Shown here piece after piece: positions 11,034-36,464 of a stretch of 64,000 nt of DNA (positions are counted from its first letter, which is position 1; each line of letters starts with the position of its first letter). The DNA comes from Mesostigma viride (taxonomy: Eukaryota; Streptophyta; Mesostigmatophyceae; Mesostigmatales; Mesostigmataceae): contig RPFO01000156.1 in NCBI GenBank assembly GCA_009746045.1, forward strand, positions 6,000,400-6,064,399. The letters are read 5' to 3'. The notes under the pieces are model-generated. The model was not told the DNA's origin, ran no database searches, and saw nothing but the letters and a program-made list of their open reading frames with translations. The position numbers and the translations under genes are program-made.

Positions 11034-12578
11034 AGACAAGGAGAAACGGGCTGCCGTCTGCGATAAGCACCTTCCTGTGGGGCATGCTCCTGTATTCTCC
11101 CCACGGGCCCCGCGGCCCATTGGTAGAATATGCAGGGTAGAAGTCCGCAGGTGGAGGTTATTGCCCCTGAGGATAGCCGCTACACTACCGCCTTGTCTGC
11201 CGTTACAGTAGAGGACAGCTAGCTCAGATGAGGATTATATCCCCCTCTAGTGACTATACTGAACGACTCGAAAACCCGAAAAGATAACGGCAGGCTCGAG
11301 CTACCATGGTCCGGATTCTCCCGATTTCTGGCCTGCGCTGGTTGTCTCTTTGATATGGCTCTGGCATGATGAAGAAGATATTTGTAACGTGTAATTATTT
11401 TTTTTTCTCATGAGACTAGCATAGTAAGTACTCCGTGGCATGCCCATGCGCATGACACGCAAGTACTTACTTAGTTATCCAGTCATGCATGTGGACATGG
11501 GCCAGTCATGAAGACCTGGACCAAATGTAGCGAGGCTGCATGGGTGGGTGGGAGCTGCAAAGTGGCCTGGTTGTTGCCCAGCCACAACCATAAGAACCAG
11601 CCGACTTAGGGTAGTGCGCGCCGGCCAACTGACCAACAGGCCAGTGGCGCCGGGCCGCTCCCGGTGCACAGAACTGCCCCAGGTCCACAGTACTGCCCCT
11701 GGTCTACAGGACCCCCACCACACTACTAGTCGGAACTGCCTACTGCGGCGACCCCTCCCCCTCTGAGACTTCCTGAAGTAATTGATAATACAAGCGAGAG
11801 CTCACAAACTACATGCAAGTCCTGATTCGAGAAGAATACCTTCTCAGATGCATATGTCTGCATGGCCTACTCTGGTTGTCTCAATCATGGATACCTTCAT
11901 ATTTAACTTTCGTACCCTGTGACTCTCCGGCCATGCAACATGAGGCTGCTCAATGAGGCACATGAATGAATGCCTGGCTTGAGTGCTTGATACAGCTCCT
12001 AAATTGTCAAGGAGTCAACCAGCGCAGGCCAGAAATCGGGAGAATCCGAACCATGAATCTGGATATCAATTATACGTACGTCTCATTGGGGATATTGACA
12101 CACGGATCTCTCCGCGCACCGGCCACTGGCAGCCGGCCTTGCTGCATATGGCACAGGCTGGCACGGCAAGTTGAGCAACAAAAATAGGTCAGGGATGGAA
12201 CTAAGTACAAATTTGTTTCGTCAAAATTGTCAGTACAGCATTGACAAAAACTACCCATCATTCTTGTCAGAAGCAAAGGTAGGTCGTTGCATGCGACTAC
12301 TGCATGGCTGATTAGTAAATGGAATCCCCCCTATCCACCCCCCCTTCGTCTTTGTCGTGCACGATCTTAAAGCGAACTCAACGTGGCAATGATACAACTT
12401 CTGTCCTTTGAAACTACCACACCAATAAGACAGCTACAGCTAGACAGAGGACATGCTCAAGCACGTACCCAGTGCTTGGCGTCGCTGCGCTAAACTTCAG
12501 CAAACTCCGAAGTGAATCCATACAAGTTTACGGTAATAAAAAAGGTCCGCAGTCAAGCCATAAGCGCTCGAAATCCGA
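11034..12578. other. Intergenic region with family S and hairpin repeat copies
   Basis: No gene is supported. It holds a family S copy in reverse (11255-11357), the dispersed hairpin repeat in reverse (11430-11475) and a shorter family S fragment (12005-12055). The remainder, including 11476-11990, has no coding signal that I can recognise. The 3' end of the minus-strand SBP-receptor gene lies at 12579. Confidence 0.55.
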
Positions 12579-15500
12579 TCAAATCTCCTCCGAGTATCGG
12601 GGCCCAGCCGGATTCTTGTTCGACTGCAGAACCGAGGCCGGGGGCTTGCTGATCGGGGGCTCAATGGCATTTGGCACCGTGCGGACCGCATAGGGCAACG
12701 GCTTCTTCTCCTTGGTTCGGCCCCGGTACAGCAGAAAACCGATGATCAGGGCGATGAGGATGGCACCACATACCGATCCGACCACAATCCCTGCGATGCC
12801 TCCCGGGCTGACACCACCGTCCTCGTCACTCTTCTCCACTTGCACAGCCGGCTCTGCACCCACAGTCGGTGCCCAGACGAGAGGACAAGCAGATGGAGGC
12901 ATGTTACGACTTGGTTAGATTGATGTGGATTGATAAAAACGCCCCAAGAAAGGGGTCACTTTGGTAGATGGCACAGATCGGTTGGCTTCGCAGTCGGGGC
13001 GCATCGTCAAGCATTAAATAGCAGACATACAAGCAAGAGGTTACTAGGATCGACCAAAAAATAAATGGCTCCAACATTCAGCCGAAAATCGTACGACATA
13101 GCTCAGTTGAGGCCGGCTCCCCATCCCATGTAGGCTGCCATAACGTCATTCGGCATGAAATTAGAAAGATGACCTGGATTCTGAAAGTGATCCAAAGACA
13201 ATACCTGTCATTGAGGGGCGACATTGTTGGAAACGTGTCAACACACGAGCATGACTGGGAATTCAGCCTTGGGCCAACTTGCCCAGGGCGCATCGGTGTG
13301 TCGGGTGCCCTGCGCAAGTCCCTTTGCTTGTGCTTATGCACGCACAGTGCCGGCCTTGCCATACTTAGTAGCATCATACTAGAGACTACTGTTATATCCT
13401 CAATCCTGCATGTTGTTACATCCATGCGAGTGCTGACCTTCTACGCCGGTCCAGCCCTGGGATATCAGCAGGCCGCCCTCGCGCAGCAGCACATTGGGCG
13501 CCTCACGAGGGATGAAGAGTTCCACATTGCGCGCGTAGATGTCGCCTGTGGGGGGGGGGGGGGGAAGGTTTAGGGTGTAGGGCGTAGGGTGCATTCATTT
13601 GGGCGAGGGGCATACGCGTAGATGTCGCCGGAGGGAGGGGGGGGGGGGGGGGCGACGAGGGTAGGGTGTAGGGTGTACAGTGTACGTTTAGTGCTTTGGG
13701 CTCAGACTGTTAGTGCAGATGTCACCTGTGGGGAGGGGGACAAGGGGTTTTGGGTGTAAGGTGTAGGGTGTGGGGTTAGTCATTTGGGCTAGGAACGTAA
13801 GCATAGATGTCGCCTGCGAGTGGTGACTGCGGGTCAAGGTTGAGGGTGGAGGGTGCAGGGATGACTCCTTGAGCTCAGGATGCTAGCGTAGGTATTGCCT
13901 GCAGGGGGACATGAAGGGTCCAGGGTTCAGGCTTGCAGGGTGCAGGTTTCAGACTCATCGTGCGGGCCCGGGAACTTAACCTTGATGCCGCGCGGGGGAG
14001 CCATCAAGGGGGGGGGGGGGGCGGCTACAACAAGAACGGTTCAGGCTTTGGGTCTGAGCTGCAGAACCTGCAGTCATCGGCGGTGCATGGTGTGGCTGGT
14101 GTCAGCGTGGGCGTTAGCTAGGTCGATGCTAGTGTGGGTGGCAGCCGAGATAGTAAACTTGATAAGAATGCAAGCCAAGTGCTTCTAGCGTGAAAAATAT
14201 TGATATGCTACGAATAGGTACGCACTGAGGATATGGGCCTTGTTGGAAGAACGGGCCCAGCTGCGCAAAAAAACCTACAACGACCACTGGGACATGGCTG
14301 CCATCAGTTTCCCCCACCGCCCCGCAGCCTTTAATCCCTCCTGATGGCGTGTGGAGTGTCATGCTGGCGAGGTAGGCCTTATCAGAAATAGCAATGAGAC
14401 AACCAGCTCAGGCCAGAAATCTGGATAAGGTTCAGTCGTGTAGCGTGCCGCATCTGAAGGTGACAAAAGGTCTAGATGTCGGAAAAATTCCGGATTCAAG
14501 GTAGGACCTGAACTAGGCCAAACGTGACAACCGTGACTTCTCGATAATTTAAAGGTGTGGTTGAAAAGTCACAACTCATAGTCATAGCTTGATCGGGGGT
14601 CCTGAAACAAGCGGAGTTGTCCTGTCCAAAAAGACGAGTCACTTGAACGGGGCAGTCGCCCTGTTCTGGGCGCCCGCATCGCTGAGACAGGCACGCGAGA
14701 GCGGCACAGAAAAACACCATTGGTCAACACCCCTAGAAGTAGTATATACGACATGCAACCGCTGCACCAACGACATCATCCAAAGTTCCATAAGAATCCA
14801 GTCAATCGAGTTTCTATAAGAAACCAAGCATTCAGTTTTCCATAAGAATCCAGTCAATCGAGTTTCTATAAGAAACCAAGCATTCAGTTTTCCATAAGAA
14901 TCCAGTCAATCGAGTTTCTATAAGAAACCAAGCATTCAGTTTTCCATAAGAATCCAGTCGATCGAGTTTCTATAAGAAACCAAGCACTCAGTTTTCCATA
15001 AGAATCCAGTCAATCGAGTTTCTATAAGAAACCAAGCATTCAGTTTTCCATAAGAATCCAGTCGATCGAGTTTCTATAAGAAACCAAGCATTCAGTTTTC
15101 CATAAGAATCCAGTCAGTCGAGTTTCTATAAGAAACCAAGCATTCAGTTTTCCATAAGAATCCAGTCAATCGAGTTTCTATAAGAAACCAAGCATTCAGT
15201 TTTTTTTTAAGAAACAGCTTCCCTTTTGTTCGGCAAATCAACACTCCAGCTCTGTCGCCACAACGCGAGATATCGAGTCACCATCACGCACCGTAATTCC
15301 CGACCGCGCGGATAACGTATTTCATGAAATCCCGAGCAATCGGAAGCCCGGCGGGTGCCTTCCCTTCCAACCCCATCAGCAGCCGCCCCTCCCACTGCGT
15401 CGGCTCGCGCTGCCCGACTGATGACTGCGAGATCCCCTCATCCTCGGCCGCGATCAGCCCCTGGATGACCCAGTTGACGACGTGCAGCAGGTCCGTCTCC

Positions 15501-18500
15501 CCGTCAACTACCGCGGCCGCCAGCGGCACGCGCAGGGCCACGCGCTCCGCCTCGGTGGTCACTGGGATGAAATCCAAGTTCCCACCTGCGGCTAGCTCCA
15601 GGTTCCCACGGTCGCTCGACAAGGCTGTGCAGCGGCCGGAACGGATGCCCTCAATGCCCTCGTCACGGTGCGCCACCTGGCGAGGGGGAGCAGTGGGAAG
15701 CAGAAGGGATCGGAGTGTGTGGGAGGAAGTGGGAAGTGGTGGGAAGTGGTGGGAAGTGGTGGGAAGTGGTGGGAAGTGGTGGGAAGTGGTGGGAAGTGGT
15801 GGGGAGTGGTGGGAAGTGGTGGGAAGTGGTGGGAAGTGGTGGGAAGTGGTGAGAAGTTGCGGGAAGTCAGTAGTGAGCAGTAGTAGCAGCAAGTATAGCT
15901 GTGGGTGTGTATGTATGTGTGTGTTGGGCCACAAAAGTGTGTGGGCATATGAATGGTTCCTCCAAGAAACTTATGTAGGTGCCCTACTGCATAAACTAGA
16001 AGCTAACAACCCAGTTGTACCCACATAAAAATAAATGGGTGGCCAACGCAGTGCGTCGAAAGAAATTACATTTACATGGGTGGCCACCCTATGGGACCAC
16101 CCCATTCCACCCACCTGCACCACGGCCGCGTTCCTCAGCAGCGAGCTTGCCACAAGTCCCGACGTGCTGCCCGCGACCACGCAGCACGTGGACCCGTTCC
16201 GGTCAATGTCGGCCAGCTGTAGCGACCCAGATGACGAGGGCACCAGCGTGGACGTGTCCACCAGGAAGGCCTGGCTGTCATAAAAGTAGGGCACGCTAAA
16301 GGAGAAACCCCAGGCGACGTCACGGCCCAGCGTGGGGGTCAGCTCGTGGATGAGAACGTCGACGCTGCCATTGTGGAGCGCGGACCGGCTGCACGCGCAA
16401 ATTGTTGGGTTTCAGGGCAAAAAGTGTTGTGGTAATTTACTCAGAGAAAGGGAGGACGGGCTGACCAGCTGCATGCGGCAACCAGTTGATCCCAGCGCAC
16501 AGCAGCGCGTATTCCCTTTGAAGAAAAGCAAAGGATATAAAGGATAGAGATGGTAGAGAGGATAGAGCGAGTAGAAACGGAGAGAGGATAGGAGAATAGA
16601 GAGGATAGGAGAATAGAAATGGTAGAGAGGATAGGAAGGATAGAAATGGTAGAAAGGATAGGAGAATAGAAATGGTAGAGAGGATAGGAAGGGTAGAAAT
16701 GGTAGAGAGGATAGGAGAATAGAAATGGTAGAGAGGATAGGTGACTAGAAATGGTAGAGAGGATAGGAGAATAGAAATGGTAGAGAGGATAGGAGAGTAG
16801 AAATGGTAGAGAGGATAGGAGAATAGAAATGGTAGAAAGGATAGGAAAATAGAAATGGTAGAGAGGCTAGAAAGTATAGAAAGGATGGGTCGTTTGTAGG
16901 GCTGGCTCCGGTACAGCTACTCCCCATCACCTTGCGTATCTGTACAGGTGCCGGTAGCACAGGTACTGTTACCCGCAAGGGTCAGCAAGTACCGGCACCG
17001 GCACCGAGACGGCCACCACAGAAACTGCTACCACTGCCGGGCGATGGCTCCATGGTACCCTGTACTGACAGGTCCATCCTCGCAGCGACAGGAAGGATGG
17101 CCTGACGGGTACCGCGGCAGGTACTGGCATGCCGGCATGGCGCACTTGTTTTGGGCACGGCCTCTAGCCCTTCGAGTGGGTCTTCATACCGAATCGGGTA
17201 CAAGAAAGCTCATCTACTACTGGGTAGTATCCTACAAACTGGTGTCATACTTGTCTACACAAGCTGGTGTCATACTTGTCTACACAAACTGGTGTCATAC
17301 TTGTCTATACAAACTGGTGTCATAATTGTCTATACAAACTGGTGTCATACTTGTCTATACAAACTGGTGTCATAATTGTCTACACAAACTGGTGTCATAC
17401 TTGTCTACACAAACTGGTGTCATACTTGTCTACACAAACTGGTGTCATACTTGTCTACACAAACTGGTGTCATACTTGTCTATACAAACTGGTGTCATAC
17501 TTGTCTACACAAACTGCTGTCATAATTGTCTACACAAACTGGTGTCATACTTGTCTACACAAACTGGTGTCATACTTGTCTACACAAACTGGTGTCATAC
17601 TTGTCTATACAAACTGGTGTCATACTTGTCTATACAAACTGGTGTCATACTTGTCTACACAAACTGGTGTCATACGTATTTAGAATAGACTGTACTAGGG
17701 GGAGTATTCGGTGAGTACTGCACTGGTGTCATACTTTTCAAGGTTACTATAATAGGGGGGACAATTTAGGCACCATTCTAGCCCGCTCTCCTTCCCTCCC
17801 CCAGCATCCCCACTGGCTCTACCCCCCACCCTGTTCGCTGGTCCAGCCAGCAGGCCTCCCTCGCCTTTCCAGCCATGGCTTTCCGCACTCTCCGCTCCCT
17901 CCCCTGTCCCCGACCCTCAGGGTCCCTGCCCCCCACCTTCATTTCTACCCCAAGCCCCCTGCTCAAGGTTAGGTGAACTGATCCCGTGCTCCTACCTCTC
18001 CAGACCTCATATCCCCCAACCTGCTCATCCAGCCTCACAATGTCCCCATCAGCCTGACGTTATGCCTGCCTCTCACCGCGTACACCCCGGATCACCCCAT
18101 GCTTCATTTGCGATTGTTCCCTACTCTCACACCCCACACCCCAAACTCCCTTGCTCGGTCACCGCTTCCAGCCCCTACTCCCCTTGCTTGCTCCTCAAGC
18201 CCCATGCGATTCCGATGTCTCACTGTCCGGCTCCCTCATCACCACACGCTCGCTTGCCCTCTCGCTTGCCCTCTCGCTTGCCCTCTCGCTTGCCCTCTCG
18301 CTTGCCCTCCAGGAGGGAGAGCGTCTCCACCACCTCGCCGACCCCCGCCTAATGCAGTTCCTATTTTGCGCTGTCAGGTACCCTCACCACCACACCATCG
18401 ATCGCTCACCGTTCCAGGAGGGAGAGCGCCTTCAACTCCACCACGTCATCGATGGAGTCCGAGCGGTTGAAGATCGCGGCCGCCACCGCGCGGCAGAGGT

Positions 18501-21500
18501 CCACGTCCATCCCGCCAGCTGGCGCGCTGCCACTGGCCGGCTTGCTGAACACGGACTGCTCGTGCCGCAGCGCGCCGCAGATCAGCTTGCCGCGCAGCTG
18601 GATGTTGGTGAGCCGGCGGTTGGGCGGGGCCTGGGCCACTGGGGGTGGAGAAGGGACAGGGATCAAAACGAATTTCAAGGGAAGGGGAGCGAGAGAAAGT
18701 TCGAGGGATGGGAGGCAGGGACGTTTGGATTTTAATATGAGACCAGAATACACAGACACACAAATACACAAATAATAAATTGGGTTTTTACAAGTCAGAG
18801 TTGATGGCAATAGATTTTGTAATGCACGATGATGTAGTGTTGTAATCATGTCGTAAACAGTAAAGTAATGTGGAACATGTACATCCATAAGATCATTATG
18901 ACAGTATATCATTATGCCAGCCTATAACAGGGTTCAGGGAACCAGAAGCTTCACAGAGTATTCATGTGTTCATCACCCGAACAGCATACAACCGCCACTA
19001 GGAATAGTAGTCTAGGAATAGTACTATACACTAGTAAAATAGCCACAGTAGCGTACACTAGTACTATGCTACCATATATGCCCGTACAGTACACGGATAC
19101 TGCTCATCCTCCTTCAAGTGATATGCTCGCATTAATGAACTAATTAATTAAATAAGAACATACCTCCGTGGGGCGGATATGTACCACATATCCCTGAGAA
19201 GGGGCATATGGTTTTTAATACATTCTAGCTCGCATGCCCTGGCTGATCTCCCTTATGTCTGTCAGGCACAGGTACATAGGCTGCTCGTAGTATGCCTATT
19301 GACGTGCGCTCTCACCCTGGCTGAACTCCCTTATGTCTGTTAGGCACAGGTACATAGGCTGCTTGTAGTATGCCTGTTGACGTGTGCGCTCACCCTGGCT
19401 GATCTCCCCCGTCTCCCCAAGGAAGAGGTAGGGGTACAGCGCCCCCCGGCTGGACGTCCACAGCGCGTTGGGCGTGTTGGCGCGGGGGGTGCCACCTGCC
19501 GGCAAGTTCCTCGCAAAGATCTCCCCTGGAGAGGGGTCACCGATGGCAAAGGATGATAAAGGACAACGTGGCAAACGATGGCAAACGATGACAAAGGGAA
19601 AAAAAATTCGAGGGATGGTCAAGAAGGGTGGCAGTGGAGAGCGGCAGTGGAGAGCGGCAGCCAAGGGTAAGGATGAGGGGTGACGGGGACAGGTGGCAGT
19701 GGCAAAGGGTGATGCTATGTGTTAGTGGCAAATGGTCATGATGGATGAGCTGCGAGGGTACAATCACAGGTTGCTCTAAGGGAACGAGGGGCATGGCGTG
19801 AAGGAACAACAGGGCGTTTCGCGAGGCCAGTCCCAAACACTTAGAGACAAAGTTAAGAATTTACATTTTGGCTACCAGGTGGCAACATACGCGTGCACCC
19901 AGTCCTTGTGCTAACGTCTGCCAACCGCAGTACAAGCGGGGCGAGTTGTACTGGGATGACACAGGATGCGCCCCGTCACCAAATGAGAGCTTATCTCCAC
20001 ATGATGAGGGCTACCTACTACAAGATTGAGGCTATCTAATGATAGAAACTAATAAAATGTGCAAGATAGCTACCAGCGTACAGAGGTACACAGCATCACC
20101 GACCGTAGTTGGACAGCACACCCGGAGTAACGTTGTACTCCGATCTTGAGAGTGTTCTGTTGGGCAGCAGGTATAGCATGAGCCTTCAACGTGCTGCTGG
20201 CATCCCCACCTTCACGGACGTTTGTGTGCACGTCATGAGCACGCCTTATACCTGCTACCGTGCACGTCTCAACTGTGTGTGTCCCCCCACCCACAGTGTC
20301 ATGGCAAAGCTTACCCACGAGTGCAGCCGTGCTCCCTGGCCCCACTAGAGAACGGCCGTTCAGCAGCCATGAAGCTTTTAACAAGAGTGCTTCTGTTAAG
20401 AGGTCTCCGAAACTGTATTACTGAGCTATTTTAAGACTCCAAACGCAACAGTCCAAGAGGGTGGTCACACCGGCTGCAGGAATGAGTCCTAGCAGGCAGA
20501 ATCTGTATCTAGCATCCCAACTTGTACATAGCATGGCAGCACTCCTATATTTCATACCCAACTTGTACATAGCATGGCAGAGATTATGGAAGAGATTGTA
20601 TAAGAGATTGCTTATCACATACCCAACTTCGTCGCCCGCTTGAAGGATACAGTTTCCCAGCAGGTAGGGAGCGAAACACGCTCGTGCCAGTAAAGAAACA
20701 GGAGCACCTAGTTAATACCTACCGTAGTTGCCCACTTGGAGAAGGGCATTCTCCATGAAGCTGCGGTCCAGCGGCAGCGGAGCCGCGTTCCAGGGTGCCC
20801 CCAGCTGGGCCTCCAGCCGCGTGAGCAGCTCTGGTGGCACTCGGCCCAGCAGCAGCCGCCCCTCGAGCTGGGTGGGCTGAATCGTGGCCGCGTTGGCCCG
20901 CGTAATGCCCAGGCTTTCCGCCAGCACGAGTCCATGCAGCACCCACTGCACGATGCTTGACCAAACGGGGCTGCAGCGGTGGGGTGGTGGGGGTAGGGTT
21001 GGCCCGGGTTGGGTCGGGTCGGGTGAGGTGGGTTTGGGTTGGGTTGGGTCAGATCAGGTCGGGTCGGGGGGGATTAGGGCAGTTTAATTTGGTTTGGTTT
21101 GGTCTGGTCTGGTCTGGTCTGGTCTGGTCTGGTCTGGTCTGGTCTGGTCTGGTCTGGTCTGGTCTGGTCTGGTCTGGTCTGGTCTGGTCTGGTCTGGTCT
21201 GGTCTGGTCTGGTCTGGTCTGGTCTGGTCTGGTCTGGTCTGGTCTGGTCTTGTCTGGTCTTGTCTTGTCTTGTCTTGTCTTGTCTTGTCTTGTCTTGTCT
21301 TGTCTTGTCTTGTCTTGTCTTGTCTTGTCTTGTCTGGTCTGGTCTGGTCTGGTCTGGTCTGGTCTGGTCTGGTCTGGTCTGGTCTGGTCTGGTCTGGTCT
21401 GGTCTGGTCTGGTCTGGTCTGGTCTGGTCTGGTCTGGTCTGGTCTGGTCTGGTCTGGTCTGGTCTGGTTCGGTTTGCTTTGGTTGGGTTTGGTTTGATTT

Positions 21501-24500
21501 GGTATAGTTTGGGTCGGGTGGGGTTGCGTCGCGTGGGGTTGGGTCGGGTGGGGCCGGGTCGTGTTTTGTTTTGTTTTGTTTTGTTTTGTTTTGTTTTGTT
21601 TTGTTTTGTTTTGTTTTGTTTTGTTTTGTTTTGTTTTGTTTTGTTTTGTTTTGTTTTGTTTTGTTTTGTTTTGTTTTGTTTTGTTTTGTTTTGTTTTGTT
21701 TTGTTTTGTTTTGTTTTGTTTTGTTTTGTTTTGTTTTGTTTTGTTTTGTTTTGTTTTGTTTTGTTTTGTTTTGTTTTGTTTTGTTTTGTTTTGTTTTGTT
21801 TTGTTTTGTTTTGTTTTGTTTTGTTTTGTTTTGTTTTGTTTTGTTTTGTTTTGTTTTGTCGTGCCGTGCCGTGCCGTGCCGTGCCGTGCCGTGCCGTGCC
21901 GTGCCGTGCCGTGCCGTGCCGTGCCGTGCCGTGCCGTGCCGTGCCGTGCCGTGCCGTGCCGTGCCGTGCCGTGCCGTGCCGTGCCGTGCCGTGCCGTGCC
22001 GTGCCGTGCCGTGCCGTGCCGTGCCGTGCCGTGCCGTGCCGTGCCGTGCCGTGCCGTGCCGTGCCGTGTCGTGTCGTGTCGTGTCGTGTCGTGTCGTGTC
22101 GTGTCATGTCGTGTCGTGTCGTGTCGTGTCGTGTCCTGTCCTGTCCTGTTGTGTTGTGTTGTGTCGTGTCGTGTCGTGTCGTGTCGTGTCGTGTCGTGTT
22201 GTGCTGCGCTGTGTTGTGTTGTGTTGTGTTGTGTTGTGTTGTGTTGTGTTGTGTTGTGTTGTGTCGTGTCGTGTTGTGTTGTGTCGTGTCGTGTCGTGTC
22301 GTGTCGTGTCGTGTCGTGTCGTGTTGTGTTGTGCTGTGCTGTGCTGTGTTGTGTTGTGTTGTGTTGTGTTGTGTTGTGTTGTGTTGTGTTGTGTTGTGTT
22401 GTGTTGCGTTGGGTCGGGTGCCGGTTCAACGACTGGTGTGCCAGGTGGTGGGTGCCAGGGCTTCTATTCTTGGCCACGAGATTAGCTAACTGCATATCAT
22501 GGTAGCTACCATGTGATTGACAACTGACAAGCTACTCGTAACCTACCGTAGCATGCGATCACGTCCGTCAGTAACCGCGCGGGTTGAAAAAATACTATGC
22601 GCACAAGTCACTATACACACCTGTTGTGGGCAGTGAGGACGCCATAGGCCTCCCGCGATAGCACGTCGGTCAACACGGCCAGGTTGGCGCGGGGCAGCGC
22701 GGCCGTGAGCCATGAGCCGGGGCCCGTGAGCGCCATGCAGCGGCCCGTGGCCAGCGCCTCCAGGCCCCCGTCACGGTCCTCCACCTGGCGAGAGGGGCGG
22801 GGGGGAGAGTGCGTGGGAGAAGAGAAGTTTTTTTTTCTCTTTCTTTAAAACGGCATATGCCGTGCCTTGTAACCTCCACACACAGGACGCACCCTTTAAG
22901 ACGCAATTTAAAGCGAGCGAGTGACACAATAAGAGTTCCTTAGCTACTACCTTCGCTACCTTCGCTCCCTCAGCTACCTTTGCTACTAGTAGAGCTCTTT
23001 CTTGTGAGTCCTAAGATTACGTACCAGCACCTGCACCGCGTCTGGCAGGTTAAAGAGCGCACACGCCTGCTCTAGGTACGCGTCCGCCACGACGCAGTAG
23101 CTGACGTCCGCACGGTTGAGCTCGCTGAGCGCCAGCTGTCCGATGGGGGTATCCACTACGGAGGCGATGGCCGTCTCGTTGACGACAAAGGACTGGCCGT
23201 CAAAGAAGGTGGGGGTGGAAAACACGCCCCACGTCCAGTCGCGGCCGAGCGTGATGGTGGAGGGGAGGATTACCACATCGACCGCACCATTGTTCACGAG
23301 CTCCGCCCTGGATCATGGGGCAGCACAAGATATTTGAGGATGCAAGATTTTCGTTAACAAGGAAACTGATAGGATGCGTTCACCGGCTCAGCTCTGGACG
23401 TGGCCGCGTGATGCAAGCGAAGATAAAAGGTTTCCAACCAACTTGGTTTCTTTGTATGTTAGGGGAGGATGACCATGTTGACCATGCCACTGCTCACCGG
23501 CTCCGCCCTGGATGTGGCAGCACGCTGCTTTTGCGCAAAGTTTGTTAAGAACATAGCTGCAAGATTATATGGGATGTACCAGACATGTCTCTGCTGCGCC
23601 GCTGCTCACCAGTTCCGCCCTGTGTGGGGCAGCATGCTGTGCAGCATTTCATGATAAAAGCGGAAAGGTCTATTCCGATGAAAAAACACGTTTAAAAAAA
23701 CCCAAAAGGAAAGATGCTATGTTCCACAAGATTTGTTACAATAAAAGATAACCGCGAAAGTAGGTGGGATTCAACGGGTATATCCCATCGCATGCATACA
23801 TGGCTTCTTCTGACAGCGTCTTGGTTGTACGTTACTGGAAGTCAATAAGTGGGTAGTGCCAACGACATATACGCCCACCTCACATACGGGGTTCCGTGGA
23901 GGCCGCCCATAATGCATAGCCATGATGTATATAATTGCGCGGATGGACGCCATCCATCTGTAATTAATATTGTGCGGTCTCCCTCCGCGCCGCAACCTGG
24001 TACTGGCCTGTGCACACTGGAGGCAACAACGCACTGGGGCCTGAGCGACGAGGCTACATGACGGGCTACAGAACGTGGCATGCACATGCACTCTCGCCCA
24101 TGAGATCTTGACATTTATATACACATCCATGTGACATACCCCGCCTCTCTCAGGAGGCCCCCACGCGCTAGCTGTGTCAGAATTCGGGACGTCGACTCGG
24201 TATTCAGTCTAGAAGAGTAGCTACACCAAGGCTACTACCAATCTGTCGGGTGTGGGCGGGCAGAAATTCTCCTAGCATACTGCCGATGCTGGCATGTACA
24301 GCTAGATCCTCACCCTCCAACGACCACACCACGCACCAGCCAGATGCCAGCAACACGGGCTGGGGTGTGATGGAGCGCGTAACGAGTGAAAAGGATGGCA
24401 TACCACAGGAGCATACTCCACGCTCGGTGTCTACCCGCCCTCCTTACCGGTCGGGCGTGGGAAGTACTGTATAGTACGTAATCTAAAGTAAATGTTCATC

Positions 24501-27500
24501 AAAAGCTAATCTTTAGTGTACAGTACTGTATAGTATACAACTAGCGTGTCATTGTCATCAAGCATAGCATACCACACGAGCGTACTGCCCGCACCAGTAT
24601 ACAAAATCCCTCGTTAATGCCCGACCATTCCCCTACATACATCCCATCATCCCCAAGTCTCTACATACATGTTCTAAAATCCCCTCCCCCCCAAAAAAAG
24701 CCCCACCCACGCCCACCGGTCGGACGAGGGCAGCACGGTCTGGTACGTGATGAGCGCGTCAATATCCCCGTTGCGCCCAAACACGGCGGCCGCTAGCGCG
24801 CGGCACAGGTCGATGTTGAACCCAGCGAGCGTCTGGCCCGCCACGTCGTTGAAGAAGCCCTTCTCGTGCGTCAAGGCCGCACAGCGCAGGATGCCGCGGT
24901 CCAGGATGCGAGCATAGGTGTCCGAGTGCGCCGAGTCTGCGGACAGGGAATGCGTCCCAGTGGTACCATGTCGAATCATAGGAGACCAAAGATAGGTGTC
25001 CATAAGGTAGCGCCCATGTCCAATCATAGGAGACCAAAGATAGGTGTCCAAAAGTTAGCGCCCATGCATACGTATGTTAGCGTCCAAGTGCGCCGTCTCT
25101 GCGGGTGTAATGTGTGCAAGTATAGGCAATAAAGAATAAAAGCCTCTTTAAAAGTGTCCAAGTGTACGTGTGCAAGTGTGCGTGGCCTAGTGTATGTGTG
25201 TAAGTGCAAAAGTTCAAGCATAGCTGTAGCCACCCAAGTGTAAGCATCCAAGTATAGGTGTCTTAGCAATAGCGTCCAGGCATAAGTGTCCAAATTGTAA
25301 CGCCCCAGCATAAGTCTCCAAGCATAGGTGTCCCAGTGCGCTGAGTCTGCGGGCCCCACGTGTGGCAGGTTTAGTGGCATGAGGTAAGGTAACGCGAGGT
25401 GAGGCGAGGCGAGGCGAGGCGAGGCGAGGCGAGGCGAGGCGAGGCGAGGCGAGGCGAGGCGAGGCGAGGCGAGGCGAGGCGAGGCGAGGCGAGGCGAGGC
25501 GAGGCGAGGCGAGGCGAGGGGAGGCGAGGGGAGGCGAGGCGAGGCGAGGCGAGGCGAGGCGAGGCGAGGCGAGGCGAGGCGAGGCGAGGCGAGGCGAGGC
25601 GAGGCGAGGCGAGGCGAGGCGAGGCGAGGCGAGGCGAGGCGAGGCGAGGCGAGGCGAGGCGAGGCGAGGCGAGGCGAGGGGAGGGGGGCGGGGCGGGGCG
25701 AGGCGAGGCGAGGCGAGGCGAGGCGAGGCGAGGCGAGGCGAGGCGAGGCGAGGCGAGGCGAGGCGAGGCGAGGCGAGGCGAGGCGAGGGGAGGCGGGGCG
25801 AGGCGAGGCGAGGCGAGGCGAGGCGAGGCGAGGCGAGGCGAGGCGAGGCGAGGCGAGGCGAGGCGAGGCGAGGCGAGGCGAGGCGAGGCGAGGCGAGGCG
25901 AGGCGAGGCGAGGCGAGGCGAGGCGAGGCGAGGCGAGGCGAGGCGAGGCGAGGCGAGGCGAGGCGAGGCGAGGCGAGGCGAGGCGAGGCGAGGCGAGGCG
26001 AGGCGAGGCGAGGCGAGGCGAGGCGAGGCGAGGCGAGGCGAGGCGAGGCGAGGCGAGGCGAGGCGAGGCGAGGCGAGGCGAGGCGAGGCGAGGCGAGGCG
26101 AGGCGAGGCGAGGCGAGGCGAGGCGAGGCGAGGCGAGGCGAGGCGAGGCGAGGCGAGGCGAGGCGAGGCGAGGCGAGGGAGGGGGGGCGGGGCGGGGCGA
26201 GGCGAGGCGAGGCGAGGCGAGGCGAGGCGAGGCGAGGCGAGGCGAGGCGAGGCGAGGCGAGGCGAGGCGAGGCGAGGCGAGGCGAGGCGAGGCGAGGGGA
26301 GGCGGGGCGAGGCGAGGCGAGGCGAGGCGAGGCGAGGCGAGGCGAGGCGAGGCGAGGCGAGGCGAGGCGAGGCGAGGCGAGGCGAGGCGAGGCGAGGCGA
26401 GGCGAGGCGAGGCGAGGCGAGGCGAGGCGAGGCGAGGCGAGGCGAGGCGAGGCGAGGCGAGGCGAGGCGAGGCGAGGCGAGGCGAGGCGAGGCGAGGCGA
26501 GGCGAGGCGAGGCGAGGCGAGGCGAGGCGAGGCGAGGCGAGGCGAGGCGAGGCGAGGCGAGGCGAGGCGAGGCGAGGCGAGGCGAGGCGAGGCGAGGCGA
26601 GGTCAAAGGGGGCCCACCGCGGATGAGCGTACAATGATGTTCTGAGAGTTGACAGTTCCTCACCCCACTGTGGCACCACCATAAGGCAGGCAGGTGGCCC
26701 AATTCATACAAGAGGCTGTTGACATTAGGTAAACCAACGGGGCTCACCTGCGTCGCAGACAGGGAAAAAAGCTAAGGGGCTCACCTGCTTCGTAGATGGA
26801 AAGCTTGAAGCGGCCGCTGCTGGTGCCCACGCTGCACGCATGCGGGGGTAGTTTGTATTTTAAAATTAAAAAAAGAACCAGCACACACAGATGTTCAGAT
26901 GTATGCTTAAAGATGCCCACGCTGCACACGTGGGGTTATTGCAATGCTTACAAACAGAAACTGCCGCACGCAGATGTTCATATGTATGCTTAAAGGTGTG
27001 CGTGTGGGGCATTTGGAACCGTCCAAAGCAAAAACACAAGCCTTCATTGCTCAAATGCATGGTCTATATCCCTTGGTGGAGTAGCCCACAAGTACAAGTA
27101 TGGTATTGGGCGCACGGTATCTATGGCATCCGGTGCCTGGGCATGCATGGGCACGGGGTGATGTAGTATCCTTAAATGCAACGTGTGGCCAGAGGGGGGC
27201 ATCCGCTACGGCTTCACGAGGCACGCCCTCAGAAACAGTGGATGGCTTTCATGCATGTAGCCCAGCAGTTATGCGCGTGCGATCACGCGGGGTAGTCGGC
27301 CAGGGACGGTCAGCGACTAGTGTCATACCAAGTACACGCGCCACCCACCCATCGATCACGATGTAGTACTTCACGCCCGCGGTCAGCACCACCGCCAGCA
27401 CACTCTCGGCGTCATCGCAGTCACCGCCGGCATCTGCCACGTAGCACGCGGCCGTGAGGCTGCCCGCGGGCACCACGGGCATGCCGTTGCCATCCACCAG

Positions 27501-28756
27501 GTACACGATCGCGTCAAAAGCAGTCCCACACAGGGACATGTACACCATCTTCGTCTCCGTAGGGGTGTACGAGTATACCTGGTACGTTCGGGGCGGGTGC
27601 AAGGGGCAGATGCTATTTTCGCGGAGGTGAGACGGCAGGGGTGTGCACAATGACGTTGGGGGAAGGTATGGGGGGCAGATGCTAGTAATGTCCATGGATC
27701 CATGGATTGATTGTGTGCGTTGGGGGAAGGTGTCCTTACCCTGGGGACCCCCGGAAAAGATGTCGGTAGTTTTCAAGCGGACTTCAAATTGGACGTGTCA
27801 TGTTCATTGGTGGAAGTCATGAAATGTTGGAGCTCAACCAGCAGGGGCGAAGGGATAGATGGAAGCCCGGTCAAGGAGGGCTATGGGAGGGGAATACCTT
27901 GAATGGTACAGGAACAGTACAATGCCGGTGTTCCCTGTTGCGTGGTGAGGATCAGGGAGGGGTGCGGGGGGGCAAGGATTCGTTAACAGGAGGCAGAGGG
28001 AGAGAGACTTTGGGTATCTGTGGGCACAGCGAGGCCTGAGACTACGGAATCCAACCGGCTGTTGCGACAACTGCTAGGCCAAACACTACAGAGCACCATT
28101 GGTTGCATGCATATCGCAAAATTGATCGGCAAAGTAGTTTCCAGGAGTGACCGAACGTGAGTGATCCACAGGGAGATCCATGAGGCAAGAGCTGTTTGCT
28201 GCGCCAGGGCGAGCAGGCTTCATCACGTTTTCCTGTCCAGCTAGGCCCCTGGGTCTGTACACACAACCGGACTTCCAAGGTCAAAGTAAGGCGAGCAACA
28301 GCTCACCACGTCAGGGGCGTGGGAGGAGATGGGATCGCCCGTGCAACCCTGCGGCGAGTAGGTGTTGTTGTATCGCTCGGTAGACCCGAAGGCGACCGCA
28401 GGCAGGAAGGTTATCGCTTGCGCCGTGGCAATGGTGTCAGCGGGGTCTGTAGAATAAAAGTGCAACAAAATGAAAGAGAGAAAAGGTCCAGAGATACAAA
28501 TACCTGTATGCTTAGTAGAATACATACTTTCCACTTCACATTAGCAGGTCGCTACTATGAATGCGGTAAAGCCACGCACGAAATGTACCATAGCAACGTT
28601 CACTGGTTCGGCAGGCAGGTGGCTGAAAATCCTCAATGACTACAAAATAATTATCGACTGACCTCCAGCGAATGGTAAACAGTCAGCAGTCCCAGCCAAA
28701 AGTATTCCCACCATCAGGAAACATCGCCGAACAACGGCCATTATCGCTGCAATCAT
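12579..28756 (-). CDS. Membrane protein with PPC-like and two tandem AapJ-type amino-acid-binding domains
   Basis: Fourteen exons (28756-28663, 28446-28307, 27578-27349, 26831-26785, 24936-24717, 23307-23025, 22784-22621, 20970-20723, 19525-19394, 18638-18410, 16388-16115, 15676-15292, 13545-13438, 12853-12579) join with GT-AG introns and no phase conflict: 2829 nt, 942 residues plus stop. Residues 1-25 look like a signal peptide. Residues ~32-170 resemble the pre-peptidase C-terminal (PPC) fold (SLCG, DCDD, YYIVIDG). Residues ~180-505 and ~534-847 are each like the bacterial general L-amino-acid-binding protein AapJ/BztA (family 3 solute-binding): LCRA(L/V)AAA, LGRD..WG, P.F(Y/F)D.Q.F, (N)WV.(H/Q)GL, VGNYG. 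Residues 871-894 form one hydrophobic helix followed by YRGRTKEKK and a 47-residue proline-rich tail. Inferred role: surface capture or sensing of amino acids. No kinase or channel pore is present between the lobes or in the tail. The start at 28756 is chosen for the signal peptide; 28741 is an alternative. Confidence 0.85.
13530..13910. repeat. Five tandem copies of the exon 13 acceptor junction
   Basis: The end of the exon 13 start (GCGTAGATGTCGCCTGTGGG, plus strand, 13533-13552) recurs as diverged copies at about 13613, 13713, 13800 and 13885, each followed by a G-run and TAGGGTGTAGGG-like sequence. The units are 80-100 bp. Each copy contains a potential minus-strand acceptor plus the first ~12 exon bases. 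The telomere-like TAGGG words belong to this unit, not to a telomere. Confidence 0.75.
14783..15205. repeat. 52-bp minisatellite, about 8 copies
   Basis: Unit of 52 bp containing TAAGAATCCAGTC, ATCGAGTTTC and AAACCAAGCATTCAG, nearly identical between copies with a few A/G changes (AATCG versus GATCG or AGTCG). It lies in the intron between exons 12 and 13 of the SBP-receptor gene and ends about 85 bp from the exon 12 donor. Confidence 0.95.
15722..15853. repeat. GGGAAGTGGT 10-bp minisatellite
   Basis: About 13 copies of a 10-bp unit in the intron upstream of exon 12 (minus strand), beginning about 45 bp from its acceptor. Confidence 0.95.
16545..16885. repeat. 26-bp minisatellite (GAAATGGTAGAGAGGATAGG)
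   Basis: About 13 diverged copies of a ~26-bp purine-rich unit in the intron between exons 10 and 11 of the SBP-receptor gene. Confidence 0.92.
17228..17690. repeat. 25-bp minisatellite (ACTGGTGTCATACTTGTCTA)
   Basis: About 18 copies of a 25-bp unit, alternating TACACAA and TATACAA variants. The copies are open in several frames, which explains overlapping 60-138 codon frames; none is a gene. Same intron as the 26-bp array at 16545. Confidence 0.95.
18248..18350. repeat. 12-bp array plus duplicated exon 10 donor end
   Basis: Five copies of CTCGCTTGCCCT run into CCAGGAGGGAGAGCGTCTCC at about 18309-18330, a diverged copy of the exon 10 end at 18414-18440. The array seems to have grown beside the duplicated junction. 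Confidence 0.75.
19235..19412. repeat. Three tandem copies of the exon 9 donor junction
   Basis: CCCTGGCTGA(T/A)CTCCC, the minus-strand end of exon 9 with its donor, occurs at 19237, 19315 and 19393, spaced 76-78 bp. Only the copy at 19393 is continuous with the exon 9 reading frame. The two inner copies carry the same exon tail and potential GTGAG donors. Confidence 0.85.
21000..22425. repeat. Pentanucleotide array made of successive homogeneous blocks
   Basis: About 1.4 kb of 5-bp repeats in the intron between exons 7 and 8 of the SBP-receptor gene. From left to right the unit is GGTCT, TGTCT, GGTCT again, a short mixed part, TTTTG, GTGCC, GTGTC and GTGTT with mixtures. Periodicity is almost everywhere five. 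Because the pentamers contain no stop in several frames, open frames up to 510 codons arise on both strands; these are artefacts. Confidence 0.97.
23261..23640. repeat. Four copies of the exon 6 acceptor junction
   Basis: The exon 6 start with its acceptor (plus strand 23261-23330, GGGGAGGAT...GCTCCGCCCTGGAT) recurs at about 23379-23405, 23461-23525 and 23601-23639. The copy at 23461 includes about 40 bp of coding sequence (GGGGAGGATGACCATGTTGA), so the duplicated piece spans intron and exon. Confidence 0.8.
24911..25353. repeat. Degenerate repeats seeded by the exon 5 acceptor
   Basis: AGCATAGGTGTCC(G/C)AGTGCG plus GAGTCTGCGG occurs at 24911-24942 (real exon 5 start and acceptor) and again at 25321-25352; a shorter relative lies at 25081-25105. 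Between them the word (A)GGTGTCCAA/TAAGTGTCCAA recurs irregularly, and a ~62-bp unit (ATCATAGGAGACCAAAGATA) is duplicated at 24976-25045. Confidence 0.7.
25393..26602. repeat. GAGGC pentanucleotide array, 1.2 kb
   Basis: Nearly pure GGCGA/GAGGC repeat with a few interruptions (GGGGGGCGGGGCGG near 25684 and 26183, GGGGAGGCGGGGC near 25787 and 26295). The two pairs of interruptions are about 500 bp apart, pointing to a higher-order duplication. It lies in the intron between exons 4 and 5 of the SBP-receptor gene. The 412- to 552-codon open frames are repeat artefacts. Confidence 0.97.
26738..26800. repeat. Duplicated exon 4 donor junction
   Basis: GGGGCTCACCTGCTTCGTAG (26776-26795, real exon 4 donor on the minus strand) is matched by GGGGCTCACCTGCGTCGCAG at 26739-26758. 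The second copy offers an alternative donor 37 bp downstream. Confidence 0.8.
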
Positions 28757-29753: not shown

Positions 29754-32700
29754 ATGGCGAACCTGATGCGTGGAAAGGCAAGAGATGTAGCAAATCTTAC
29801 CAGAAATCTTTTCGACTCCTGGAAGATTTTGTTGGGTGACAAAGTAAGTAACACGATCGTCTCGTCAAGTTGTTATAATCGCGCCACGCTCTGTAAGGGA
29901 GCTCAATTTAGAGACCTTCATCTCTTACCTCCGCATGAACATTGCCGTTGCCGCTTGCCCATGCGCACTGTCGCAGGTTTACATCCGCTCAGGGCAGGAT
30001 AAAGGGAAGACCGGAATCGTAAAGCAGGTCCTTCGCAACCAAAACATGGTGGTCGTTAAGGACAGGGTTATGGTACGTCATCTCGGTGTCGCCGTGTGTT
30101 GCAAATCGCCTATCTCACATGCATTCATATTGGCTTATACTTGCTTGAATTGACGAAGGACCCACTGCGCAAGCATACCTGTCTTTCCATCCAAGCGCCC
30201 CGATCTGAGTTTTCCGCATCCGTACAGCAGTGGCACCAGGCAGGATGTCCAATAGACAATCCCTTATTTATTTTCATGCCTTTATAATGCTGTAATCTGC
30301 CGCACGAACGCAATGGCTGGGCAGAGGCGGCGGTATCTGAAGACGCCAGATGGCAAGCGCGTGGAGCATTTCTCGGAGCACCCCATCCACGTCTCCAACG
30401 TGGCCCTCTTCGACGAAGCCAAAGGGTGGGTGAGAACTAGTGACTCTTATTACCACTAGTACTACTGCTACTACCACTACCAATAATAATAATAATAATA
30501 ATAATAAATATTACTGCTGCTACCACTATTATTATGATAACTTTGTGACTGATTGAGTACTAACTGACTATTCAACTCTAGCCCAGTGGGGTGTGTGGGC
30601 GTGAGTATGGTCTAGTGGGGTGCGTATGGATGTCTGTTATCAAGTGCGGTGCGCGGGGATGACTGGCATCTAGTGGGATGAATGAGAAAGTCTTCTACAG
30701 ATTTTTTTATAATGTCAGGAGGGGTGCGTGGGAAAGGCTGGTGGGGAAGTCTTAACATGTGGAGGTTTGTGATGGTACATGTCCGATGATGGAGGTCTGG
30801 CTTTCCCACGGACATCCTCTATCAACTTCTAGAAGTTGGTCAGTAGTCAGTTTGGATGTCCCTGGCAGTAATTGATCGTGGGTGCACGTTTGCCACACAA
30901 ACACAGAGGTTCCAGCTCAGCTGCTGTTTCCCAATCAGACCCATATCATGGCGGGGATCTAACCGCCGGCACATGGCACGCCTTACCCCCCAGCCTAGTT
31001 AGATAGATACCCCTCTTTACACCACTGAACCCTTCACAGACTTTCACACCAATTGAATTCTTTCACACCCTTTCACACCCTTTCACACCCTTTCACACCC
31101 TTTCACACCCTTTCACACCCTTTCACACCCTTTCACACCCTTTCACACCCTTTCACACCCTTTCACACCCTTTCACACCCTTTCACACCCTTTCACACCG
31201 TTGAATGGTTCACACCCTTTCACACAACGGTTACCTGAGATAGCACATGCAACTGGCAACTGCCTACTATCTGTAATACCCCCCCACACCTTTTCAAATC
31301 TGTAAAACTCCACACCTAAATAAATCTGTAAAAAGTCCACTCCTAAATAAATTTTTAATAACGCCCATACCTATCTAAATCTATAGTAACCCCCATGTAC
31401 ATAACTCCCATGCCTAAATAAATCTTTAATAACTCTCATGCCTGTATAAATCTGTAATAGCTCCACACCTATATAAATCTGCAATAGCTCCCATATCTAT
31501 AGAAATCTTTAACCACTACCATGCCTAAATAAATCTGTAATAGCTCTCATTCGTATATTCCTCTCCCGTGTCTATGTTGGTACCCAAGCAGCGCGCTGCC
31601 CGACTAGTTTGATTCTCTCCCAAGTAATAATTCTCTCCTATTCCTTTGGTTACTACTCATTGTTACCACTCTTGTCACCCTCGTAATCATGTTGTGTGAC
31701 CCAAGCGGCCCGCTGCCCAACTATGATTGCTCCCAGCTCACGCAGGGAGCTGTCCATCGCGTGATAGCCCATGGCGCGCTCCATTGTCCCTGGTCCTCTG
31801 CAATAGCTGCGCTATCGTCCCTGATCTTTTCTCTATACATGGTTATGGATGATCATCCCTGATGGTCTATGTATCCATATGGATGATCTTCCCTGATCAT
31901 CTATATATGTTTTCGGATTATCGTCCCTGATCATCTGTATCCCGGCTCATTTATAGCACCTGGCCATCCCTTGTCACATCCCAGTTATTCTACCATTGTT
32001 ATTAAGTTTTCTTCTTCTATTGTTGCGGATGCAAGCAACGAGCCGTTCAATGTTCTGTCCCAACCGCTCATGGTTCGATGTGCCAGCCACGGTCTATTAT
32101 GATGCTACGGTTGCGAATGACGGCGACGAGCCGTCCGAGGCCCTGTCCCAACCGCTCGTGCCCCCTTACGCCCAAGTGCAATCGCGCCGCCATGTCGCGG
32201 GCAGCAAACAGTCCAGTGGGGCACGCTTCCCTATTTGCTCAGGAAGCATCATTTTTGTGACCGCTCCCCATTCTGCTGTTACGTACGCGAGCAGGCAACC
32301 GTCCAAGGGCAGATGATTCGGCATCGGCTCACAAAATACTTTATTTGCCACCTTTTCCTATTTTTCTATTGTTACGTATGCGAGCAGGGAACCGCCCAAG
32401 GGCATTATGATTCAGCATGTGCTGACGAAAAACATTCATGGTCCCCGTTCCCTTTTATTCCAACGTTGCGGATGCGCGCAGCAAACCGTCCAAGGCGGCG
32501 ATCCGGTTCCTGGAGGACGGCGCTCGCGTGCGGGTACTAAAGTCAGGCGCCGCGATCCCCCCGCCGCCGCTGCCGGACCGCAAGCGGAGAGGTGCGCACT
32601 GTTTACGGGCCGCCCTGTTCAGTCATCAGCGGCTGATATTGATGTCCAGCACACTTGGGTCCATAGGGAGGGAGGGAGGGAGGGAGGGAGGGAGGGAGGG

Positions 32701-34728: not shown

Positions 34729-36464
34729 TAATTAATTAATTAATTAAAATCATAGCTCCGTTGGGAGCATATGTAACACATAGCCCTGAGAAAGGGGCAT
34801 CTATGGGTTTGTAATACAATCAGGGCTACAACCTGCAGGGGGAGGATGTACAACTGTCACCTGCTCTGGGTGCACAAGGTGCACCTGCACCGCCATGATG
34901 GTTCATGCCTCCTTAACAAGCACAGGCACCCAGGGGGGGCTTGAGGAGAGGGCCTAGAAGGCCTGCATGACATATGGGGTGGAGGGTATGTGGCTAGGCT
35001 ATAGCTGGTGTACACATGGCATCTCAGCAGAGAGTAACTCCCTGCATAGGCATCGCATGGCTAAATTCTTAATGCATCATCCATGGGAGGTCCCATTGTA
35101 GGCTGGGCGCGGCTAGATACTGAAAGCATCATCCATGGGGGCCATTATGGGCGCACATGCGCGTGGGCCACTTGCAAAGGCTAAGCCTATCTAATCTACA
35201 CTACTGGTATATTCCCTAGCCTGGAGTGGCAGGAGGGGCCTGCCAGGGCTTGTGGTCAACGTGGATGACCGCCCCCCTCCAGTATACCGGCTTCCCCCCT
35301 GCACGCTGCCGGAGCTGAAGGTAGGTCGGCCATAGCTCGCGTCGCCGCTGTTGCTGGGCCAAGGTCAAGTCGTCGTCCAGCGTGTTCAAAGCGAGTCTCC
35401 GAGAGCTTCTTGCGGCATTTAAGGAACGCCAGCTTGTCCGTCATGTACTTAAAGGTGAGGAGCACGGGTGCCGGGCCAGCCTTCCCCCGCGCGCGGGGGA
35501 GGCGGACAACCGACATGTCCAGCTCACTGGTCAGTGAGTAACATGGGGGCAAGAATGGCGCGCTTAACTGCCTCAAGGAGACTCGTGGAGGTCTCACCTG
35601 CCGGCTGGTCGAAGTGCTTGACGATGACATTGTGGCTGCGCTTGTCGAGCTCGGCCGCCTCGCGAAGGTCGAGGGCTTGTTGCTTGAGTTGTGCCGCGAT
35701 GGTGGAGGTGGTGGAGGTGGTGTGATGCTTAAGCAAGTCCGCCCAGGTGGAGGGAACATCACTGGCCGGGCCAGCAGGTGCCGGCTGGGCAGCGATTTCC
35801 TGCACCGCTTGGGCGGTGAGGCCGGCGGTGTCATGCAAGCTCTCAAGGGCGGTGGCGGTGGCTTGAAGGCGTTGGTCGAGGTCGAGGAGCTGGGCTTTGA
35901 TGTCGGCAGTGAAGGCGGAAACGGCGGTGGAGGTGGAGGCGGCGGCGGTGGAAATGTGAGGAAGTTCAGCAGTCAGCGTGCCGCCGATTGCTGAAATGTC
36001 GGCAGCAAGGGGGGTCACGTGCTGCTGGAAGGCTTCCGTCAGGATGGAACGGAGTGTGGGGGCGGAGATGGATGGAGCCCAGATCTCGCCGTCGGAGCGC
36101 TTGAGAAGGGAGTTGAGGATGGCGTACTGGAGTTCGGGGCGCTTGCACCCGGGCAGCAGGGTGAGGTGTCGCCAGAGGCGGCCGTCCGGGAGGATGAGGC
36201 GATTGTTGTCGTGGAGATGGAGGCACAGGTCGTAAAGCGAAGCGTAGTCCCCGAAGAAGATGCATCTCATAGCATCGGTCGGAGACGGGTTGGTCCAGTC
36301 GTAATCAGTGACCATGAAAGGCAGGGGCCGAAAGCTCGGTTCTGAGGGGCGTGAGGACCCTCCTGTTTTGTCGGCTGAGCGGGTGCGCTTGGGGTCAGGC
36401 GATGCAGATGGCGAGGCGTTAAGCCCGGGAGGTTGCTGGACGACCACCAGTGCACGACTAGTGG
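34729..36464 (-). mobile_element. Family A ORF1-only element with exact 12-bp target-site duplication
   Basis: ACGGAGTACTAT is present at 34717-34728 and 36465-36476. On the minus strand the 1736-bp insert lacks the 5' leader, then has ORF1 (to a stop at 35216-35218), 3' untranslated sequence, the hairpin at 34755-34768 (GCTCC, CAAC loop, GGAGC: a compensated stem change relative to ACTCC/GGAGT) and a TTAA tail at 34729-34747. Confidence 0.85.
35216..36464 (-). pseudogene. ORF1p-like protein of family A, longest copy, two frameshifts
   Basis: The frame is open from the 5' truncation to about 35530 (RALVVQQPPGL ... ). Features in order: a proline-rich N-terminus with SPSASP and KR pairs; a W-rich part (LWRHLTLLPG); a helical, alanine-rich stretch likely to form a coiled coil (FTADIKAQLLDLDQRLQATA); then ALDLREAAELDKRSHNVIVK, LPRARGKAG and VYWRGAVIHVDHKPW. 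This order recalls L1 ORF1p (coiled coil, RRM, CTD). An ACCA insertion near 35535 and a one-base shift near 35385 break the frame. Confidence 0.65.

Follow-up and report, generated by a model that had tools for sequence, protein, structure and literature searches.

A spliced Mesostigma viride gene for a predicted single-pass membrane protein that carries bacterial-type amino-acid-binding domains in tandem

Amino-acid-binding domains of a bacterial transporter type appear twice in what looks like a eukaryotic membrane protein of Mesostigma viride. Is this a real, spliced gene, how did the two domains come to stand side by side, and what would such a protein do? We analysed a window (the whole stretch of DNA, 64,000 nucleotides) in which the gene occupies 12579..28756 on the minus strand. 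Joining the 14 exons of the gene as rebuilt here gives one continuous reading frame, 935 codons long before the stop, from an ATG at 28756 to a TGA that ends at 12579. Its 13 introns are 216 to 2021 bases long; all 13 have GT/AG borders, and there are no frame conflicts. The spliced eukaryotic gene proposed in an initial annotation is thus borne out by the introns and the uninterrupted frame. The outer coordinates, the 14 exons and the 13 phase-compatible junctions of that model stand, whereas its length of 942 residues is replaced by 935. The window sits about 6.0 Mb into contig C2 of a genome of 440 Mb in 2243 contigs. Because of this position, the gene does not lie on a stray bacterial contig, and from the genome size and the introns we conclude that the source is eukaryotic.

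The exons, all on the minus strand, are listed below in the order of translation; D1 and D2 are the first and the second binding domain.

28663..28756, minus strand: exon 1, start codon and hydrophobic signal-peptide-like segment (residues 1-31, recognised by hydropathy, no homologue); donor GTCAGT; no upstream ATG in frame
28307..28446, minus strand: exon 2, beginning of the N-terminal module; AG acceptor and GTGAGC donor, frame maintained; no profile match
27349..27578, minus strand: exon 3, central part of the N-terminal module; predicted fold with five strands (pLDDT 65); no Foldseek match at E <= 0.001
26785..26816, minus strand: exon 4, last part of the N-terminal module (GGRFKLSIYEA); chosen by look among 33 phase-compatible candidates; the least certain exon
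24717..24936, minus strand: exon 5, first lobe of D1; preceding intron in phase 1
23031..23307, minus strand: exon 6, Thr256 and Arg261 of the D1 carboxylate site, passage into lobe two, changed loop 314-316
22621..22784, minus strand: exon 7, lobe two of D1; Pro353 replaces the Asp of its relatives
20723..20970, minus strand: exon 8, return of D1 to lobe one, through GNYG; the border between exons 7 and 8 has no equivalent in D2
19394..19525, minus strand: exon 9, C-terminal extension of D1 and linker
18410..18638, minus strand: exon 10, first lobe of D2; preceding intron in phase 1
16115..16388, minus strand: exon 11, Thr606, Arg611 and GST loop 662-664 of D2
15292..15676, minus strand: exon 12, Asp702 of D2 and return to lobe one
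13438..13545, minus strand: exon 13, C-terminal extension of D2
12579..12853, minus strand: exon 14, stalk next to the membrane, transmembrane helix (approximately residues 864-887), tail of 48 residues and stop

Exons 5 to 13 are anchored by homology, as the pieces of D1 and D2 fall in order on one bacterial family. The joins of exons 1-4 and of exon 14, which have no homologues, are based on frame, splice sites and the expected parts of the protein. For exon 4 the acceptor reads CAGCAG, and the other possible edge, 26819, shifts the length by one residue. Exons have a GC content of 0.65, with 0.82 at third codon positions, compared to 0.53 in introns. Furthermore, identity between D1 and D2 over 295 codons is 0.53, 0.59 and 0.41 at codon positions one, two and three, with its minimum at position three. 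The third-position GC content and this pattern of identity support the view that selection acts on the encoded protein. Neither TGTAA nor AATAAA occurs on the minus strand in 11700-12620.

The introns have peculiarities of their own. Stretches that nearly repeat (91-94%) the borders of exons 5, 9 and 13 recur in neighbouring introns, at 25321-25352, 19287-19330, 13615-13647 and 13717-13739; they include the splice-site bases and are possible decoy splice sites. Copying of exon edges in this way seems to have lengthened some of the introns. Extensive tandem arrays of almost uniform repeats occupy introns at 21088-22411, 25394-26602, 17234-17675 and 14786-15203; examples are a run of 242 GCGAG units of 5 bases and arrays of TGGTC, TGTTT and TGTCG set back to back.

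Elsewhere in the window, an exon of a class I/II aminotransferase (PF00155, E 6e-27) at 1866-2939 on the plus strand is part of another gene. Pieces with a KOW motif at 29848-30440 on the plus strand, two of which were joined by hand, are divergent in orientation from the studied gene; they resemble a uL24-type ribosomal protein gene. A related open-reading-frame stretch, LKxHTTSTTS...AELxKRS, occurs in three copies (35655-35733, minus strand; 37134-37212 and 43245-43323, plus strand). The one copy compared with Pfam had no match, and the copies are likely derived from a mobile element. Rfam gave no match in the window. A search of the Mesostigma assembly with PF00497 detected three places, none of them in the window: L167 and L169 on contig C2011, and L168 on contig C2034. 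As the split gene itself was also missed, this search says nothing about paralogues. Contig C2011 has stretches of 32-34% GC and carries unspliced family 3 binding proteins as well as coaE- and dnaQ-like genes; C2034 has 46% GC. Contig C2011 is probably a bacterial associate or contaminant.

The family of the two domains is clear from profiles and structures. SBP_bac_3 (PF00497) matches the protein in two stretches (E 3.7e-14; 53.1 bits with a cut-off of 26.4). The best NCBIfam model is TIGR01096 for lysine/arginine/ornithine binding (E 3.9e-24), with 85.5 bits below its curated cut-off of 256; all seven bacterial relatives that were compared with this model match it and likewise stay below the cut-off. 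By sequence, the best solved structure is PDB 4z9n, an amino-acid-binding protein presumably from a Brucella species, to which D2 (E 4.8e-30) and D1 (E 9.3e-29) both align end to end. We thus confirm two complete family 3 binding domains. Both also contain the C-terminal extension and the motif GNYGEIYxRN. The long form with this extension agrees with the AapJ kind to which the domains had been assigned; the name AapJ itself lacks model support, as no NCBIfam model of that name is among those matching D1, D2 or the bacterial relatives, and we use AapJ/BztA-type as a label of convenience. Relatives of D2 were found in 184 plasmid records, all with less than 60% identity and the best row at about 32%, and viral contigs gave 150 relatives, of which 80 were kept.

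The ligand domain of ionotropic glutamate receptors belongs to the same superfamily. Such a receptor was considered for this protein and rejected: the alignments of both D1 and D2 to 4z9n run on through the crossing between the lobes, in line with the earlier statement that no pore is inserted between the lobes, and there is no extra strong hydrophobic helix.

D1 and D2 share 37% identity over 307 residues (E 2e-51). In an alignment of 88 rows, the internal introns of D2 lie at columns 179, 284 and 450 in phases 2, 0 and 1. D1 has introns at the same three columns and in the same phases, plus a fourth at column 352, and each domain is entered via a phase 1 intron. By our own estimate, three exact coincidences among about 900 positions have a chance of less than one in a million. 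The acceptor edges of the homologous exons 7 and 12 are moreover 90% identical over 29 bases that partly include intron bases. In the tree of the 88 rows, D1 and D2 form a pair with support 100/99. The branches are long (3.0 for D1 and 1.42 for D2), and long branches can pair falsely; the case for duplication therefore rests mainly on the introns. By plain identity, two of the 86 bacterial rows, both cyanobacterial, are nearer to D2 (39.5% and 38.2%) than D1 is (37.6%), and none is nearer to D1 than D2 is. Taken together, the shared intron positions and phases and the pairing in the tree point, as the simplest history, to a probable tandem duplication of a single domain that already had introns. 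If so, the shared positions date the duplication to a time when the domain was already an intron-bearing eukaryotic gene.

When comparing the ligand pockets, we find that the two domains are unequal. The Arg of the carboxylate site is present in all 86 bacterial rows and is kept as Arg261 in D1 and Arg611 in D2. The pocket Thr, found in 84 of the 86 rows, is likewise kept in both (Thr256 and Thr606), as are the four cysteines, each of which is invariant in the bacterial rows. The loop G-[ST]-T (G in 84, then T or S in 86, then T or S in 85 of 86 rows) is Gly-Ser-Thr 662-664 in D2; its counterpart in D1 is Asp-Ala-Tyr 314-316. The pocket Asp, which in LAO-type proteins holds the amino group of the ligand, is again present in all 86 rows and in D2 (Asp702), and D1 has Pro353 instead. 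Thus, the ligand residues of AapJ/BztA-like proteins are complete in D2, and D1 is without the loop and the Asp. D2 is itself altered at other conserved places, for instance at Pro607, where 70 of the 86 rows have Trp. As judged from these residues, it is only D2, not D1, that keeps the expected amino-acid site. The unequal pockets and the shared introns are what our analysis adds to the initial annotation.

A solved bacterial sensor helps to interpret these positions. In CdgH, a Thr five places before the Arg contacts the alpha-amino group, the Arg contacts the carboxyl group, and a later Thr supplies an additional backbone contact (PMC5431781). The amino group of the ligand is held there by a glutamate at a different place (PMC5431781). 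Therefore, the missing Asp is no proof that D1 is empty, and D1 may bind something.

Trees and residue counts were based on 86 bacterial rows, consisting of 6 of the 184 plasmid records and 80 of at least 570 confirmed genome-contig stretches, the latter found with one pattern drawn from an eight-row alignment; none of the rows was dropped. In the 88-row tree, D1 and D2 group with five cyanobacteria (support 99/100). When the pair was instead held with 48 Pseudomonadota rows, six of which were assigned to this phylum by the analyst, the likelihood was better by 5.2 (p-AU 0.63). Nor did the AU test reject a grouping of the pair with all 22 cyanobacteria (p-AU 0.39). In quick trees, D2 shifts among the Pseudomonadota once D1 is removed, with a long-branch warning, and D1 without D2 is nearest to rows of Roseomonadaceae and Acetobacteraceae, with no starred set. 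The phylogeny thus pairs the two domains and gives no single donor. The bacterial source proposed earlier stands as an ultimate origin; as for an alphaproteobacterial donor, the trees give cyanobacteria or Pseudomonadota depending on the choice of rows. We therefore rejected any named donor, as both groups are compatible with the AU test, and because the end branches amount to 1.4 and 3 changes per column no donor can be named.

The strongest hydrophobic stretch of the protein spans residues 867-885 (mean hydropathy 2.8), and hydropathy gives no further strongly hydrophobic helix. On this basis, the signal-peptide-like start and the one transmembrane helix that had been described are upheld. 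The helix region has weak matches to receptor helices (E 0.02-0.16, below cut-off) in one profile search and none in another. In the 48-residue tail, no Pfam family reaches its cut-off, and neither a kinase nor a cyclase was found. The N-terminal module had been called PPC-like; this was not supported, since Pfam searches that admitted E values as high as 10 gave the module no match, whereas a PPC consensus, used as positive control, matched PPC at 1.7e-23. Exon 3, folded alone, gives the five strands listed above, and ColH collagenase (3jqw) ranks only 30 and 44 among the 50 Foldseek matches listed (E 1.7 and 2.5). PPC (PF04151) was thus rejected as the identity of the module: in addition to the absent profile match, its sole PDB match is an antibody chain (E 0.47) and its one place on plasmids has E 7. 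The PPC consensus itself had no match on plasmids. From the folded model, the module may be a distant beta sandwich. Enrichment of N-glycosylation sites was also rejected as evidence for secretion, as five sites compare with 3.8 expected and 640 of 2000 shuffles had as many.

Comparison with known systems shows which features are particular to this gene. AapJ/BztA-like proteins, as represented by 4z9n and the plasmid and cyanobacterial relatives, share with D1 and D2 the length, the end-to-end alignment, the four invariant cysteines, the T-x-T-x-x-R-D site, the motifs GRC and GNYGEIYxRN and the C-terminal extension. However, the bacterial relatives that we retrieved are single-domain proteins, whereas the Mesostigma protein has two fused domains, one with a changed pocket, and a transmembrane helix. 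In a plasmid relative with long flanks, the binding-protein gene is followed by genes for two permeases and an ATPase. Two family 3 flytrap domains in tandem with a transmembrane helix after them also occur in the bacterial sensors CdgH and BvgS. Unlike CdgH, which ends in a cyclase, and BvgS, which ends in a kinase, the Mesostigma protein stops 48 residues after the helix with no enzyme found; it also differs from both in its long AapJ-like domains and in the intron positions that these have in common. In photosynthetic eukaryotes, PBPb homologues are noted for chromalveolates and Euglena in a passage of PMC2064935, and AAPJ is an entry in the legend of a diatom nitrogen map from a 2019 study, whose corresponding section does not discuss it (PMC6787086). 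These family 3-like or AapJ-annotated proteins are comparable to the Mesostigma protein by description only, and the passages concerned do not mention tandem domains, introns or a receptor role, unlike what is found here. The main text of the Cymbomonas genome paper (PMC5741210) contains none of the terms periplasmic, solute and ABC transporter. Among the literature matches listed, mostly from outside subscription journals, there is no eukaryotic tandem membrane protein with this domain order. The claim of an undescribed order therefore holds for the architecture and not for the family, since PBPb homologues and a diatom AAPJ are already in print. The family and the principle of tandem flytraps are known; the host, the order and the history are new.

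What might the protein do? We propose a single-pass amino-acid receptor or receptor-like capture protein, in which D2 would bind the ligand and D1 would be degenerate or re-specialised, and we give this proposal about an even chance of being right. The predicted ectodomain would consist of two long AapJ-like Venus-flytrap domains from a tandem duplication, placed at the cell surface or in the endomembrane system if the predicted secretion and topology are correct. Judging from conservation and solved relatives, the membrane-near D2 would close on an L-amino acid via Thr606, Arg611, the GST loop and Asp702. D1, having lost the Asp and the loop, is predicted to bind nothing, to play a structural part or to prefer a different ligand. 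It might serve D2 as a partner or hold a ligand of its own, by analogy with CdgH, whose two domains prefer different ligands and whose dimer becomes more compact once arginine is bound (PMC5431781). Closure of D2 could then alter the packing of the two domains, or of two chains, and the one helix would relay the change to the tail. Because no enzyme could be found there, the tail would have to recruit a partner protein, unless a transporter takes over. For the history we tentatively suggest, at clearly less than even weight, that a bacterial amino-acid transport subunit became a two-domain single-pass receptor: it would have gained introns, been duplicated in tandem and been fused to a signal peptide, N-terminal module, helix and tail, after which D2 kept binding and D1 came to regulate.

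The main rival of the receptor is a capture role, in which D2 would enrich amino acids at the cell surface, or inside a food vacuole, and then either pass them to a separate transporter or be endocytosed, much as the bacterial subunit works with its permease. The descent of the domains from transport subunits fits this role, as do the absence of a signalling domain from the tail and the AAPJ entry in the diatom map (PMC6787086, legend); however, two fused, membrane-held domains with one altered pocket would resemble sensors more than transport subunits, and we regard pure capture as possible but rather unlikely. It is improbable, and clearly more so than capture, that the protein serves in adhesion or recognition, with the fold kept, both domains acting as spacers and no amino acid bound in vivo. 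The loss of loop and Asp in D1 and the changes elsewhere in D2, such as Pro607, would suit spacers, but a spacer is not expected to retain the Thr, the Arg, the G-[ST]-T loop and the Asp as D2 does.

All of these readings presuppose one intact gene. A model predicted from sequence, with introns of up to 2021 bases and end exons that have no homologue, could in principle have fused two neighbouring genes or describe a decayed one. Yet frame and phase are maintained across the 13 introns without a stop in 935 codons, the differences between D1 and D2 are greatest at third codon positions, and exon 9 joins exon 10 in frame and in the same phase as the entry into D1. We consider such an artefact or decay very improbable.

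If the receptor proposal is true, a eukaryote has built a nutrient receptor from a part of a bacterial transporter, by a path that is still legible in the gene. Such a receptor would represent a flytrap lineage derived from a bacterial subunit and separate from glutamate-receptor channels and class C GPCRs. The unequal pockets would then offer a direct test of a division of labour between the two domains, and the protein would open a way to study the sensing or uptake of dissolved amino acids by such cells.
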